64,000 nucleotides of DNA, from contig NZ_JAVDWM010000001.1 of assembly GCF_031457495.1 (NCBI RefSeq), positions 62,001 to 126,000 on the forward strand, in the 5' to 3' direction. Positions 4,107-46,439 of the stretch are shown here, piece after piece. The first letter of the stretch is position 1, and each line of letters begins with the position of its first letter. A model generated the notes under the pieces. It was given only the letters and a program-made list of their open reading frames with translations, was not told where the DNA came from and made no database searches. Origin of the DNA: Sphingopyxis sp. BE259. Lineage in GTDB: Bacteria; Pseudomonadota; Alphaproteobacteria; Sphingomonadales; Sphingomonadaceae. A program made the translations under genes and the position numbers.

Positions 4107-4631
4107 CTACTGATACTCCACCGTCACCGGAATTCGCCCGCGATAGTCGCCGTCGTCGGCGCCTGCGATCTGCAGACGACCGCCGAAGCGAAAGACAAGG
4201 CGGCCATCGGGGCCGAGGCGCGGGGCGGCGTTGAGGTCGGTGGCGAGGCCGGTGACGCGCGCGGTGCGGCCGTGACTGCCCTCCAGATCGACGCTGGTCG
4301 GCAGGATGACACGCACTTCGGCGCCCGGGGCGCCGCGCACGGTGACCACACCCGTCAATGCAAAGCCGCCGAGATCAACGACGTCGCCGCTGAGGCGGCG
4401 CGTGCCCGATACCGGGTCGACCGCGACCTCGCCGCCCATCGCGCCGACCGCGATTCGCCCCATGTCGAGCCGCGTTTCGACCTCGACGCGCAGCGGCACC
4501 TCGGCCTCGCGCGCCGCCAAGCTGGACGCCTTTTCCGGCGCGCAGAGCAGGCACTGCGCCGATGCCGCGGGCGCGGTGGCGAACATCAGCACACAGGCAA
4601 GGAAAAGGCGCAGTTTCACCCCTGAACGCAT
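4107..4631 (-). CDS. DUF4402 domain secreted protein
   Basis: 174 residues: signal peptide (MRSGVKLRLFLACVLMFATA, cleavage near residue 25 after SA), a Cys pair in QCLLC just after it, then a beta-rich domain ending DGDYRGRIPVTVEYQ. That end matches the C-terminus of the DUF4402 protein at 44670-45167 (AGDYTGTFNVTANYQ), so I place both in the same family. DUF4402 proteins are exported and are often coded beside fimbrial-type chaperones and ushers; none is adjacent here, so this one could be an orphan subunit of the 40.8-45.2 kb system. ATG at 4631; a GGTTAACC element lies just upstream. Confidence 0.7.
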   Translation of the reverse strand: MRSGVKLRLFLACVLMFATAPAASAQCLLCAPEKASSLAAREAEVPLRVEVETRLDMGRIAVGAMGGEVAVDPVSGTRRLSGDVVDLGGFALTGVVTVRGAPGAEVRVILPTSVDLEGSHGRTARVTGLATDLNAAPRLGPDGRLVFRFGGRLQIAGADDGDYRGRIPVTVEYQ

Positions 4632-40817: not shown

Positions 40818-43595
40818 CTAATGTCCCCCACCCCCCGCGCCCGGCGGCCCGCGCCCGCCGTTGCCCTCGCCCATCACGGCCGTATCCTCCTGCGCCGCGA
40901 CATCACGGCGGAGCGGCTTCACCGCCAGCGCTCCAAGCCGCACCCGCGGCGTCGCCTTGCCGGGCATCGCCGCCATCGCGAAATTGCTATCGAGCCGCAA
41001 CGCCGCCGCCGACGCCTGCCCCAGCCGCACCGTATAACGTCCGTAAGCGACGCTTTCGAAAAGGAAATATCCGTCGAACTCGGTCAGCGTCGTCGCGCGC
41101 ACCCGCCCTTCGGCGTCGACCAGCTCGAGGCTCAGCCCCTCGATCGGGTTGCCGCCGTCGCGCCGCACGACCCCCTCAATCTCGCCCGCTGCCGCCATCG
41201 GCAGCGACACCCGCGTCGCGACGCCGGGACGCGGCGACACCACGACGCCCGGCAGCGCGGGCTGGACATAGGGATCAGGCAGGCTGCCGGCATCGATGCC
41301 GATCAACACCGGACGGAACGGCTCCAGCCCGTCGATCGTTGCCTGCCCCTGCTGATCGGTCGCCGCGTCGATAAAGCCGTGGCCCGCGGTCAGCGGCACC
41401 CCCGCCAGCGGTGCCTCGCCAGGCTGACGAATGCCGTCGCCATTATCGTCCATCCATATGTCGGCGATCACCTGACCGCGGCTCGCCAGCTTTTCGCTCG
41501 ACACCCGCCAGCCGCCATTCGGCTTCGGACCAAAGCTGAACGCGAGCGACAGCGACGCCGCGAGCGAGCCGTCGCTCGCCACTTCGCCAAAAGCGCTCAG
41601 CTGTAACCGATTGAAACGGCGGGTATATCCAGCGCCAACCCGCGCCCGGTCGAACCCGCGATCATAGCCGAGTTCGGCGCGCCATTCGGCATCGCCCTTC
41701 CCGGCCCATTCGCCGATCAGCGCCACGCGCGTGTCGCTGCTGTCGCCCGACAGCGCAAAACGCGCCTCTCCGCGGACGCGAACACGCCCGATCCGGGCAT
41801 TGGCGAGCAGGCTGGCGGTCAGATTGTCGGGCGGATCGGGGCCGATCGGCACCTTGGTCCGGCTCCAGTCGAGCTGGCCGGTAAAGGTCAGCGCGCGAAA
41901 ACTCGCCGATGCGCGCGCGCTGGCTTCCAGACTGGCGATCCCCGACCGCCGGTCGATCTGGCGGACGTCGAAATGCAGCGGCAGCACGGTGCGCCCCAGC
42001 TTGACCGCCTGATCGACCGAAATCGAATAGAGGCCGTTGATATTGCCGAGAAAACGGTCGGAGACAAAGCCGTTCCAGCCGCGCATCGCATCGGCGCGGA
42101 CATAGGTTTCGCCGAACGCCGCCAGCCAGCTGGCGCGAACCGCGCCGCCGCGATCGTCGGCATAGCTGCCGCCGACCTCGAGTAGCGTCGGCCCGAGCGA
42201 GCGGCGCAGCGCGACCTCGGCATAATTGCGCCGAACGTCTTCAATCATCAGGCTGTGTGCATAAGCCGCGATCGACGTGCGCGCATCGAGCCCGCGCTCG
42301 GCCCCCAACGTCCCGCGCCAGCCGCGACGGAACGGCCCGCGCCGCCGCCCGCCAAATTCGATCAGGTCGGCGTCCTCCTGCGCGAATCCCGCCCAATACC
42401 AAGTCTGCTGCGGCGGGATCGAGTCCATCCCAACCTGCACCTGCTTGATTTCGCGCCGGATTTGCCCCTGCGGCCCGTAAAGGACGATTTCGAAGCGGTT
42501 CGATCCATATTGCAGCGGCACGTCGAGAAATTCGTAACGGCCATCGCCATTGGGGCTGGTGAACGCCAGCAATTGCCCGTTGCGATAGAGTTCGGCGTCC
42601 CAGCCCGCGGGCAAATCGCCGCGAAAATCGGTCTTGTCGAAGCTGTCGGGGCGCTCGACCGGGCGATTGGTCACCACCGCGCCGCGCCCCGGCGCCGACG
42701 ATGCGACGAGTCCGGTCGACAGCAGGCTGACATCGCCCGCCGCATAATGCGTCGCTTTCAACGGGCCGAGCAGCCGCCCCTCGGGATCGGTGCGATACAG
42801 TCGCATCCGCAGACTATCGGGTACCCCCTTGTTGTCCGACGACAAGCGCGCGTCGAAACTCTGCCCTATCACCTCGCCCGCGGCGAAAATCTCGTACCGT
42901 CCCTGAACATAAGAGCCCGCGCGCTTGTCAGACACAAATCCTGCCGACGCGACGACATCGACCGAGGGGGTCGCCCACGTCTGATACGGGCGCGACGCCT
43001 GCGGCAGGCTGGCGAGGTCGAATTGCGCCGCTGGCCGAATCCCGGCGGCGCGGGCGCGCCGTTCGGCGGCGAGCTGGAACGGCAGTTTGTCCTTGGTGTC
43101 GATCCGCAGCACCGCGTTCGACAGATCGGCGGCGATCGGCACCCCCAACCAGCTGTTGAGACTGTCCAGATCGACGCACCAGCCCGCGGGCGTATCGCGA
43201 ATCATCGTCGCGGACAGCCGGAAACTCTGGCTCCCCGCGCGCACCTCGCCCGCATCGCGGTCGATCGTCAGGCTGCGCCGCTCGTCGAACACCCAGCCGG
43301 TTGCGCGGCGCAACTTCTTGTCGACGCGCACCGCCAGGTCGAGCGCGAGCACGATGTCGGCGAGGTCGACGCACACCCCCTGCGGCGTCTGATAGCCGCG
43401 CACCCCGTCGCCGAGCCGATACTGCCCCGACCGCAAGTCGAACAGCCAGCTGTCATCCTCGTTCGGCGCCCAGCCATCGTTGGCGAGCGACACGGGCTGG
43501 CTGTCAACGGCCTGAGCGCCGGTCGGGACAAGCCCGGCCAGCGCCAGCCCGGCGAGAATCGCCGGTTTCCATCGAGCAAGCACCGCGCCGATCAC
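40818..43595 (-). CDS. Usher-like outer-membrane protein of a DUF4402 chaperone-usher-type locus
   Basis: 925 residues. Signal peptide (about 1-29). An N-terminal region (30-250) includes VCVDLADIVLALDLAV and paired Cys segments, then GWDAELYRNGQLLAFTSPNG with RYEFLDVPLQYGSNRFEIVLYGPQG, very like the region in fimbrial ushers just before the barrel. A long beta-rich span (about 390-720, many alternating R-Y/T patterns) is a likely barrel, and GQVIADIWMDDNGDGIRQPG plus EIEGVVRRDGG are SdrD B-like or carboxypeptidase-regulatory modules. The Gly-rich end may be disordered. Third gene of the DUF4402 locus; ATG at 43595. Usher identity is inferred from architecture and neighbours. Confidence 0.7.
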   Translation of the reverse strand: MIGAVLARWKPAILAGLALAGLVPTGAQAVDSQPVSLANDGWAPNEDDSWLFDLRSGQYRLGDGVRGYQTPQGVCVDLADIVLALDLAVRVDKKLRRATGWVFDERRSLTIDRDAGEVRAGSQSFRLSATMIRDTPAGWCVDLDSLNSWLGVPIAADLSNAVLRIDTKDKLPFQLAAERRARAAGIRPAAQFDLASLPQASRPYQTWATPSVDVVASAGFVSDKRAGSYVQGRYEIFAAGEVIGQSFDARLSSDNKGVPDSLRMRLYRTDPEGRLLGPLKATHYAAGDVSLLSTGLVASSAPGRGAVVTNRPVERPDSFDKTDFRGDLPAGWDAELYRNGQLLAFTSPNGDGRYEFLDVPLQYGSNRFEIVLYGPQGQIRREIKQVQVGMDSIPPQQTWYWAGFAQEDADLIEFGGRRRGPFRRGWRGTLGAERGLDARTSIAAYAHSLMIEDVRRNYAEVALRRSLGPTLLEVGGSYADDRGGAVRASWLAAFGETYVRADAMRGWNGFVSDRFLGNINGLYSISVDQAVKLGRTVLPLHFDVRQIDRRSGIASLEASARASASFRALTFTGQLDWSRTKVPIGPDPPDNLTASLLANARIGRVRVRGEARFALSGDSSDTRVALIGEWAGKGDAEWRAELGYDRGFDRARVGAGYTRRFNRLQLSAFGEVASDGSLAASLSLAFSFGPKPNGGWRVSSEKLASRGQVIADIWMDDNGDGIRQPGEAPLAGVPLTAGHGFIDAATDQQGQATIDGLEPFRPVLIGIDAGSLPDPYVQPALPGVVVSPRPGVATRVSLPMAAAGEIEGVVRRDGGNPIEGLSLELVDAEGRVRATTLTEFDGYFLFESVAYGRYTVRLGQASAAALRLDSNFAMAAMPGKATPRVRLGALAVKPLRRDVAAQEDTAVMGEGNGGRGPPGAGGGGH

Positions 43596-43625
43596 GGTCC
43601 TGGCTTTCGCCCCATCCTTACTCGA

Positions 43626-44453
43626 TCATTTCACCACCCGATCGGCTTCGTCGATCGTGCCACCGCCGATTTCGCGATCCTCGGAATAGCGGATATGCAC
43701 CGGTCCCTTGAGCTTGGCCGCAAGTTCGGGCGGCACGCGCAGCGACACTTCGCGCGCGGCAACCTCGGGATATACCGCGATGCCGCGGGCAACGAGCAGC
43801 GGCTCGGGCGCGCCCGGCCGCGTCACTTCGATGTCGCCATAGACCGAACGATTGCCGCTGCGCGTCAGGCCAAAATTGAACGCCGGGCCGTCGGGCGTTT
43901 CGGCGACCCATGCGTCGCCGATCACCGCTTCGGCGCCGAGATCGCCGACGCGAACGATCACCGGGATGGTGATGCCGTAAATCGGGGTCAGCGCAATCGA
44001 AACACCGCTGGCTGGCTTTGCCGTTTCGGCAGGCGCCGCGGCCACAGCATCGGGCACGGCGCGGAACAGCATATGCGCGCGATATTCGCCCGCCGGGGTG
44101 CCTTCGGGAATCCGCACGCCGACGCGGATGACCTGTGGCTGATTGGGCGGCAGGGTGACGCGGCGCGGGCTGAACGCGATCATGTCGAGCGCCGCACGCT
44201 CGGCGGGGCTCATATTTTCCTCGGCGATCTCGTCGAGCCCGCCCGCCGCGGTCATCCGCTTGATCTCGAGGCTGATGCGATAGGTTGCCGGCTCGGCACC
44301 GATATTGTTGAGCACCACTTCGGTGCCGCGCGATCCGTCGAGCACCACCCGGGTTGGCGCGACGAGCAGGTCGCCCGCCGCCTGGACCGGCAGCGCGGCG
44401 CCGCCGAACGCAAGCGCGAAAAACAGGCCGAAGCCTTTGAAAAATCTAGGCAT
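43626..44453 (-). CDS. PapD-like periplasmic chaperone of the DUF4402 locus
   Basis: 275 residues. Signal peptide (FKGFGLFFALAFGGAALPVQA, cut near residue 27). The remainder looks like the fimbrial chaperone fold: DLLVAPTRVVLDGSRGTEVVLNNIG, RVTLPPNQPQVIRVGVRIPEG (G1-strand-like), GEYRAHMLFRAVPD and a domain-two region. ATG at 44453 directly precedes the signal peptide; frames further upstream run over the terminator. The usher-like gene starts 30 bp downstream, the DUF4402 subunit gene lies 216 bp upstream. Confidence 0.75.
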   Translation of the reverse strand: MPRFFKGFGLFFALAFGGAALPVQAAGDLLVAPTRVVLDGSRGTEVVLNNIGAEPATYRISLEIKRMTAAGGLDEIAEENMSPAERAALDMIAFSPRRVTLPPNQPQVIRVGVRIPEGTPAGEYRAHMLFRAVPDAVAAAPAETAKPASGVSIALTPIYGITIPVIVRVGDLGAEAVIGDAWVAETPDGPAFNFGLTRSGNRSVYGDIEVTRPGAPEPLLVARGIAVYPEVAAREVSLRVPPELAAKLKGPVHIRYSEDREIGGGTIDEADRVVK

Positions 44454-44578
44454 GGATACGATCCCCACAATCGTTGGTCCGGAATGGCCCACACCATTCC
44501 GCTGGTCGCATCCTGCCTGCGCCAACATGGTTGATATTTCGCTAACCATGGGGCGCTTATCGTGCCGAAACGGCACGT

Positions 44579-44614
44579 AAAAAGGGGTCGCCAGCTTGTC
44601 GCTGGCGACCCCTT
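44579..44614 (-). terminator. Strong intrinsic terminator between the DUF4402 subunit and the chaperone gene
   Basis: On the minus strand AAGGGGTCGCCAGC pairs perfectly over 14 bases with GCTGGCGACCCCTT (loop GACAA) and ends in TTTTT. It would let the subunit mRNA accumulate while only read-through reaches the chaperone and usher. A second small hairpin CGTGCCG/CGGCACG lies at 44561-44577. Confidence 0.8.
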
Positions 44615-44669
44615 GATGTGATCGGCGAGCCGGAACCCGCCGGTCCCCCACCCTTATCGGCCTTTGGCC

Positions 44670-45167
44670 TTACTGGTAGTTGGCGGTGACGTTGAACGTC
44701 CCGGTGTAATCGCCCGCCGTCTGGTTGGCGCCGACGCTCAGCGTGCCGCCGACCTGAAAGCTGCCGCCGGTCGCGCCCAGCGTGATGTTCGCCGCCGAAT
44801 AGGTCAGCGTCGAGGCCATCGTGCCGCCGAGCGAACCGTTGAGCGTGACGTTGGCGTCGCCACCGACGAGGACCACAGCACCACTGGTGCCCTGGACGTC
44901 GAAATTGGCGGCCGTCGTCGTACCAGTGCAGGTCAGACCCGCGCCGCAAGTGCGCGCGCCAGCCGTGGTGACGGCGACGGTCGAAGCGGTGGCACCGCTG
45001 ATGATCGTCGCATATTGCAGGGCGCTGGTGTTGGTCAGCGTGATCTGGCGCAGGATCTTGGCCGTGGCCGTCCCGGTTGCCGTTGCTGCATGGGCCGCCG
45101 AAGCGTTCATGGCGAGGGCAGCAATCGCGGCGCCGACGATGGCGCGCTTCATTCCAAATTTGCGCAT
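44670..45167 (-). CDS. DUF4402 exported subunit
   Basis: 165 residues. Signal peptide (MRKFGMKRAIVGAAIAALAM, cleavage after AHA). The mature protein is Ser/Thr/Ala/Gly rich, beta-strand-like and has one Cys pair (RTCGAGLTCTG). It ends AGDYTGTFNVTANYQ, like the 4107-4631 protein. The composition, secretion signal and neighbouring chaperone make it a likely pilus-like or surface subunit. ATG at 45167 follows AGGGA; the in-frame ATG at 45260 starts outside this context. First and, by the terminator that follows, probably most expressed gene of the locus. Confidence 0.8.
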   Translation of the reverse strand: MRKFGMKRAIVGAAIAALAMNASAAHAATATGTATAKILRQITLTNTSALQYATIISGATASTVAVTTAGARTCGAGLTCTGTTTAANFDVQGTSGAVVLVGGDANVTLNGSLGGTMASTLTYSAANITLGATGGSFQVGGTLSVGANQTAGDYTGTFNVTANYQ

Positions 45168-45479: not shown

Positions 45480-46439
45480 TCAAATCCCCTCGCCGCTCAG
45501 CCGCTGACAAATCATGTCGAGCTGATCGAGCGACGCGAATTTCAGCGTCAGCGCGCCCTTGCCGCCGCCCGAATAGTGGATCGCGACACCGATGCCGAGC
45601 AGCTCGGACAAGTGGCGCTCGACCGCGACGATATCGGGATCGCGCCCGACGCCGTCCATGCTCTTATATTCCAGCGGCGCCTTGCGCCCGCCGCCCTTGT
45701 CTTCGCGCACCAGCGCCTCGACCGCGCGGACCGACAGGCCGTCCTTGACGACGCGTCGCGCAATCGACTCGGCGTCGGCGGCACCGATCAGCGCGCGCGC
45801 ATGCCCCATCGCCAGCGATCCATCGCCGACCAGCGCCTGCACCGCTTGCGGCAGGTCGAGCAGCCGCATCAGATTCGCCACATGGCTGCGCGATTTGCCG
45901 ACCAGCTTGGCCAAAGCCTCGTGATTATGGCCGAAATCGTCGATCAGGCGGCGATAGGCGCCGGCTTCTTCGATCGCGTTGAGGTCTTGCCGCTGGATAT
46001 TCTCGACCAGCGCGATTTCATAGGTCGCCGCATCGTCGAGTTCGCGCACCAGCGCCGGAATCTGGTGCAGCCCGGCGCGCTGCGCCGCGCGCCAGCGCCG
46101 CTCGCCCGCCACCAGCTGATACCCGTCGCCATCGGGGGCGCGGCGGACGATGATCGGTTGCAACAGCCCGCGCAGCCCGATCGAATCGGCGAGCTCGGCG
46201 ATCGCATTCTCGTCGAAATGGCGCCGCGGCTGCCCTGGCAGCGGCCGAATCGCACCGACCGGCACATGCTGCACGGCATCGCCCGACACCGTCGGCGCGG
46301 CCTTTGCGGCGCTGCCCGCACTGGCGAGCACCGGCGCCTCGGCGGCAACGTCACCAAAGAGCGCGTTCAGCCCGCGCCCCAGCCCCGACGGCCGCTTGCG
46401 CGCTGGAGATGCTCCACTTTCATCTTTATTATCAGTCAT
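45480..46439 (-). CDS. parB: Chromosome-partitioning protein ParB
   Basis: 319 residues. CTP-dependent clamp that loads at parS and spreads. The N-terminal ParB/Srx domain has IRPLPGQPRRHFDENA and the CTP-binding GERRWRAAQRAG (about 121-132), followed by the HTH LVGKSRSHVANLMRLLDLP. The C-terminal dimer domain ends LTLKFASLDQLDMICQRL. It starts directly after parA with no gap (parA stop at 46440), so they form one unit. Three parS sites are within 4 kb. Confidence 0.96.
   Translation of the reverse strand: MTDNKDESGASPARKRPSGLGRGLNALFGDVAAEAPVLASAGSAAKAAPTVSGDAVQHVPVGAIRPLPGQPRRHFDENAIAELADSIGLRGLLQPIIVRRAPDGDGYQLVAGERRWRAAQRAGLHQIPALVRELDDAATYEIALVENIQRQDLNAIEEAGAYRRLIDDFGHNHEALAKLVGKSRSHVANLMRLLDLPQAVQALVGDGSLAMGHARALIGAADAESIARRVVKDGLSVRAVEALVREDKGGGRKAPLEYKSMDGVGRDPDIVAVERHLSELLGIGVAIHYSGGGKGALTLKFASLDQLDMICQRLSGEGI

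Follow-up and report, generated by a model that had tools for sequence, protein, structure and literature searches.

What assembles at the cell surface from a locus that pairs a small exported protein of the DUF4402 family (PF14352), named as a family of unknown function, with a fimbrial-type chaperone and a large outer-membrane-like protein? The locus lies at positions 40818–45167 of the DNA analysed here, a 64,000-nucleotide stretch of Sphingopyxis sp. BE259 (assembly GCF_031457495.1, contig NZ_JAVDWM010000001.1, positions 62,001–126,000; hereafter the window). Open reading frame analysis confirmed the three minus-strand genes given in a preliminary description of this DNA, encoding a DUF4402 protein, a PapD-like chaperone and an usher-like protein of 925 residues, and profile comparisons support these assignments. 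The trio is quite likely to act as a system of the chaperone-usher type, and the best reading is that it represents a chaperone-usher lineage separate from the classical, alternative and archaic ones, with DUF4402 proteins as its pilins. The computations show gene linkage, co-occurrence across genomes, profile homology of the usher and the chaperone, and the pilin-like ends of the subunits; strand donation, the formation of a fibre and the roles of four subunits are inferred. The features concerned are as follows.

45167–44670, minus strand: DUF4402 protein of 165 residues with a signal peptide, the linked subunit (Pfam PF14352, E 5.7e-24)
44582–44614, minus strand: terminator-like hairpin of 14 pairs with a T run at the 3' side, between the subunit and chaperone genes (fold z -6.15)
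44453–43626, minus strand: PapD-like periplasmic chaperone of 275 residues (matches nine K-12 fimbrial chaperones by profile; conserved Arg)
43595–40818, minus strand: usher-like outer-membrane protein of 925 residues with a GTG start (profile match to archaic and K-12 classical ushers)
42336–42953, minus strand: usher plug region and adjoining barrel strands, residues 215–420, approximate limits (slice alone against archaic ushers 93.2%, E 3e-7)
40986–41513, minus strand: usher C-terminal domains, residues 695–870, approximate limits (Pfam SdrD_B and CarboxypepD_reg; archaic ushers 95.6%, E 1.3e-8)
4107–4631, minus strand: second DUF4402 protein, 174 residues, 36 kb from the trio (Pfam E 2.1e-22; tree grouping)

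The length of the chaperone is counted from the ATG at 44453 and equals that of the public gene call P0235; its reading frame stays open upstream to 44651.

Linkage and co-occurrence of the three genes

Close homologues of the trio proteins come from Sphingopyxis. NCBIfam returned nothing above its cut-offs for the three proteins, the Pfam usher, PapD_N/PapD and fimbrial subunit models gave no match to them up to E 1, and searches of solved structures with the single sequences found nothing for the usher-like, chaperone or DUF4402 protein. The relationships were followed through profiles and gene neighbourhoods, including the check proposed in the preliminary description, whether other genomes keep the trio together.

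Of the 296 genomes surveyed in the order, 89 contain the usher, and these belong to 27 of 79 genera. From the 92 places listed, 60 were taken for spread, leaving out the weakest or most broken (G016, G133, G220 and G247), and usher, chaperone and DUF4402 genes occur together in all 60. At the class level the usher was found in 24 of 385 genomes, including that of BE259; 20 of the 28 places outside this genome were fetched, and the trio is complete in 19 of them (L335 has the usher only), with a DUF4402 frame reaching E 1e-8 in 18 of the 20. A sample of the phylum yielded the usher in 16 of 398 genomes, three being short partial matches, and all six phylum-sample loci carry the trio, with best DUF4402 E values from 2e-41 to 3e-7. 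The named relatives include Iodidimonas nitroreducens and records of Rhodospirillales and Gammaproteobacteria.

DUF4402 proteins (E <= 0.001) likewise occur in 89 of the 296 order-level genomes. Both usher and DUF4402 are present in 88 genomes and neither in 206 (Fisher test 9e-74, a value that ignores kinship), while the usher alone and DUF4402 alone account for one genome each: in G133 the usher is broken, and in G083 the DUF4402 match is at E 6e-4, below the cut-off. G267, the sole member of the same genus without the usher in the sample, has lost DUF4402 too. In a class-level sample of 230, seven of the eight genomes with DUF4402 above the cut-off have the usher, G438 being the exception. 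The reverse relation is weaker at this level, with G297 possessing the usher and no Pfam DUF4402 match; the Pfam model misses distant copies that were recovered by our own profile.

The usher-like protein and its chaperone

Profiles were compared using hhalign without secondary structure, each E value referring to one comparison. The usher profile matched a set of 11 archaic ushers, all from one order, at 99.5% (E 2.6e-22, 658 columns, score 199), eight classical ushers of E. coli K-12 at 97.1% (E 6.6e-11, 487 columns, score 102) and 11 alternative ushers at 95.1% (E 3e-8, score 81), the latter over the last 213, C-terminal columns only. Reversed profiles gave 0.5% in the archaic comparison, and 0.6 and 5.3% otherwise; 30 TonB receptors encoded by the BE259 genome, used as a control set, gave 2.9%, and the single sequences of LptD, FhuA and BamA gave 4.4, 4.2 and 0.2%. 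When the profile was cut into slices, the barrel matched the archaic set at 93.9%, and the plug and C-terminal slices matched it as listed above; against the TonB set the plug, barrel and C-terminal slices gave 0.3, 4.3 and 0.1%. By profile only, the 925-residue protein appears to contain the plug, barrel and C-terminal domains of an usher. Altogether 2368 of 8000 scored candidates were homologues of this protein at E <= 0.001.

The SdrD B-like modules described at its C-terminal end are real Pfam matches (SdrD_B 1.6e-10, CarboxypepD_reg 2e-10). NCBI names the relatives 'MSCRAMM family protein' or 'carboxypeptidase regulatory-like domain-containing protein', and all 14 matches of the usher profile to solved structures are SdrD-type or similar modules, the best being SdrD B (E 7e-10), as would be expected if the protein were a surface adhesin of the MSCRAMM type and the DUF4402 proteins its partners or unrelated to it. 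But these matches span just the last ~150 residues, while elsewhere the conserved sequence of the protein matches the plug and barrel of ushers, and in 60 of 60 loci the neighbouring gene encodes a fimbrial-type chaperone, which makes an adhesin of this type very improbable. The SdrD_B-like end aligns with the 'Td..G.a.i..l.py....i.id...l' run of FimD; from this alignment and the slice matches it follows that the end corresponds to the usher C-terminal domain pair. The usher kind of the protein is not among the public names of the relatives examined. Chaperone relatives are named 'fimbrial biogenesis chaperone' or 'molecular chaperone', so this kind is already present in some annotations.

Usher size varies among the relatives. 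In ten four-subunit loci (L081–L089 and L091) the ushers are ~1150–1330 residues long, several hundred more than in the window, and since the profile still matches near their ends, the extra stretch is internal. An usher of 3603 residues in L097 was rejected as an artefact of N runs. A SPOR domain (PF05036) is present in the distant ushers P0127, P0138, P0139, P0141, P0157 and P0166 and might link them to the division site or to peptidoglycan.

The chaperone profile, built from 61 sequences, matched the nine fimbrial chaperones of K-12 at 87.1% (E 4e-6; reversed 0.3%). In the alignment APTR71VVLDG stands opposite GATRVIYPAG of FimC, the TR of PapD and FimC falling on TR71, and EYRAHMLFRAVP stands opposite ESLFWMNVKAIP. 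The cleft arginine equivalent to Arg8 is kept in 61 of 61 chaperones, and at the RIK region of FimC all 61 have Pro. The comparison with the single EcpE sequence reached no more than 40.1%. Solved structures gave only weak matches, to Tri1 (0.031) and to EfmWxLIP1 (E 0.054 and 0.058); the latter, which the chaperone profile faintly resembles, is an enterococcal WxL-interacting protein.

The DUF4402 proteins as subunits

Pilins end in a C-terminal motif with Tyr at position -2 and Gly at -14, and each of these residues was found in 19 of 20 K-12 pilins. The linked DUF4402 protein, whose sequence ends in AGDYTGTFNVTANYQ, has both residues at these positions. Among 150 DUF4402 proteins of the order, Tyr is present in 129, Gly in 125 and both in 119, compared with both residues in one of 1274 other frames with a length of 150 residues or more. 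The last strand alternates, with small or hydrophobic residues in 889 of 893 odd and 170 of 882 even cells. Just after the signal peptide lies a segment with a similar pattern (583 of 704 odd cells, 107 of 702 even ones), while a control stretch is less alternating (240 of 680 and 462 of 732). The alternating N-terminal segment is suggestive of, and would fit, a donor-strand role.

The genome of BE259 contains four DUF4402 genes in three places, all clear Pfam members: the linked gene, the gene at 4107–4631, whose earlier assignment to the family is secured by its strong match, and a pair near 3.57 Mb (L005:9135–10745) with no chaperone or usher gene adjoining. A further usher or chaperone gene of the same type was not found in the genome. 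The statement that DUF4402 is the only subunit therefore holds for the operon and fails for the genome. Four matches are also the commonest number among the 89 positive genomes (46 genomes), followed by five (19), three (14), one (5), two (3), seven (1) and ten (1), and a group of relatives with ushers of ~950–1330 residues have four DUF4402 genes beside the chaperone and usher genes, mostly in one run.

In a tree of the 150 proteins of the order, the linked DUF4402 protein of the window clusters with other linked genes (22 sequences, support 0.919). The protein encoded at 4107–4631 falls in a group with those from the second linked genes in L053, L058, L060, L074 and L075 (eight sequences, support 0.986), which a wider group (20 sequences, support 0.851) unites with the first genes in 12 four-gene loci, suggesting that it may represent another class of subunit in the system of the trio. 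The first gene of the 3.57-Mb pair belongs to a clade of unlinked genes only (26 sequences, support 0.898) and the second has no supported placement. Three of the four DUF4402 classes therefore have some support.

These data bear on the earlier suggestion of a simple homopolymer. A homopolymer or capsule-like coat of the linked protein, with the other DUF4402 genes serving something else, would agree with the single linked subunit gene in most order-level loci with short ushers. We consider it improbable, since DUF4402 genes, linked or unlinked, are confined to usher-bearing genomes except for one weak case, and the class of the unlinked gene at 4107–4631 stands beside the trio in other genera and is the first gene of four-subunit operons. 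Nor does the absence of an adhesin gene nearby, which is correct for the window, extend to all relatives. A two-domain layout is typical of tip adhesins. In three loci (L095, L096 and L098) a protein of 324–330 residues is encoded immediately 3' of the usher; its second half is DUF4402, and its first half, examined in two of the three, matched no Pfam family. These proteins may be regarded as tip-adhesin-like, and a two-domain tip-adhesin layout is described for CupE6 in PMC10104325.

In the proposed mechanism, the DUF4402 proteins would be exported through Sec and, once in the periplasm, bound by the PapD-like chaperone, which would donate a beta strand to an immunoglobulin-like fold without its last strand. 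The chaperone would then pass them to the outer-membrane usher of 925 residues, where the subunits would be joined into a fibre via the exchange of N-terminal strands. The linked protein is probably the major subunit and would be produced in excess, because a terminator-like hairpin comes after its gene. The remaining subunits would come from the three DUF4402 genes outside the locus.

The stretch 44454–44680, which includes this hairpin, folds 6.15 standard deviations better than shuffles. A strict hairpin search in 60 loci (59 fetched and the window) found a hairpin 3' of the subunit gene in 30, 5' of it in two and 3' of the usher gene in one, compared with 2.75% in shuffled sequences; in the four-gene loci the hairpin after the subunit gene is mostly missing. 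A terminator scan missed the hairpin at 44582–44614, the T run lying partly within the stem, and a promoter scan found none. The hairpin may act as a brake that keeps the subunit message in excess.

The trio adjoins parB (45480–46439 of the window). The DNA fetched for each locus includes a ParB match in 34 of 60 loci (L040–L099) and 68 of 80 loci (L100–L179); the position of the trio near chromosome-partition genes is therefore old.

Relation to known chaperone-usher systems

Chaperone-usher systems are divided into three groups and six clades in PMC9452303. We lean, with modest confidence, towards a fourth main division, present in Alphaproteobacteria and other proteobacterial classes. It would have DUF4402 as its own subunit family, a distinct N-terminal domain in the usher and a distinct cleft in the chaperone, and a single pair of chaperone and usher may serve four subunit classes encoded in three places. 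A less probable, though still plausible, interpretation is that the trio is a very divergent archaic (sigma) member in which DUF4402 has replaced the spore-coat-U (SCPU) subunits, without forming a separate lineage. The archaic set is indeed the closest of the three references (199 versus 102 for the classical and 81 for the alternative set), a nearness expressed in pairwise profile scores and relating to 11 archaic ushers of one order. But the same measure gives 183 between alternative and archaic ushers, 180 between classical and alternative and 409 between classical and archaic, so that the score of 199 is similar to the first and half of the last. The Pfam Usher model detects an archaic-like usher encoded elsewhere in the BE259 genome (29.1 bits) yet not the 925-residue protein, and the subunits are DUF4402 proteins, for which Pfam returns that family alone and no SCPU.

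This archaic-like usher belongs to a second chaperone-usher cluster at ~1.246 Mb (L010:5146–10996), comprising two subunit-like genes (SCPU E 2.8e-4, just under the cut-off), a PapD-like chaperone, the usher above the Pfam cut-off (Usher 4.2e-7) and a tip-like protein of 368 residues. Two systems therefore coexist in the genome.

Most of the testable features of a chaperone-usher system appear to be present in the trio, with the usher N-terminal domain as the exception, and several results weigh against the separate lineage of chaperone-usher pili that we favour. The N-terminal domain recruits the chaperone in known ushers, and the N-terminal region, said earlier to be like that of fimbrial ushers, is the sole part of the protein that lacks an usher match (1.8% against the archaic set, 0.2–1.8% across the three sets). 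The domain is likewise undetectable between alternative and classical ushers (2.3%), and the mismatch therefore fails to separate the family from ushers. The archaic usher set itself matches the TonB set at 60.9% over 89 barrel columns, so the barrel similarity is partly generic. Lys112 of PapD and FimC is not kept in the chaperone, the aligned place being Thr/Ser-Ile-Pro, and the chaperone profile did not match the single archaic chaperone compared (5.7%) or EcpB (3.6%). The DUF4402 profile did not match the K-12 pilins (16%) or EcpA (6.2%). Among 49 distant DUF4402 relatives, a set from which the L323 profile match was excluded as being the chaperone frame itself, Tyr at -2 is present in 16, Gly at -14 in 15 and both in seven.

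A literature search, with most subscription papers outside its coverage, found no paper with 'DUF4402' or 'PF14352', none joining ushers or chaperone-usher pili with Sphingopyxis or Sphingomonadales, none combining chaperone-usher, alphaproteobacteria and a new clade, and none on the Tyr/Gly pilin motif; the seven papers combining chaperone-usher and Sphingomonas concern other subjects, judged by their listing. Sphingomonads are common biofilm formers. If the proposal is correct, DUF4402 would gain a function as a family of pilus subunits, and the 'MSCRAMM' and 'carboxypeptidase regulatory-like' genes of this family would become those of pilus-assembly proteins. An usher with a different N-terminal domain and a chaperone lacking Lys112 would test which parts of the chaperone-usher mechanism are essential, and the rule that a DUF4402 gene without such neighbours encodes a subunit of a distant usher is immediately usable for annotation.

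Of the known systems, the Gram-positive MSCRAMM proteins, which are anchored in the cell wall and have N-terminal ligand-binding domains, resemble the trio protein only in the C-terminal B-like modules. Alternative (alpha) pili, of the Ecp and CooC type, share the C-terminal part of the usher (the 213 columns given above), and the ecp gene order subunit-chaperone-usher-adhesin is that of L095, L096 and L098; unlike their ushers, the 925-residue protein has no match outside this part and no CooC_C domain, which Pfam did not find elsewhere in the genome either. Classical pili (type 1, E. coli K-12 Fim and its paralogues) have in common with the trio the PapD-type cleft arginine, the pilin-like C-terminal ending and, in K-12 fim and sfm, the order subunit-chaperone-usher. 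They differ in that the trio has no Pfam Usher, PapD or Fimbrial match, in agreement with the earlier statement that classical pili use other subunit families, DUF4402 being none of those of the Pfam-recognised pili, in the loss of Lys112, and in an usher ~50 residues longer than FimD (878 residues) with SdrD_B-like modules. Archaic pili, e.g. Csu and CupE, are alike in the plug, barrel and C-terminal domains of the usher by profile, in the set of subunit, chaperone and usher genes, and in the tip-adhesin-like two-domain protein of some trio relatives. They have SCPU in place of DUF4402 subunits, an usher N-terminal domain with no detectable counterpart here, and a chaperone that, in the one case compared, is not matched by that of the trio. 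By profile score, the usher of the trio is as far from the archaic set as the alternative ushers are.

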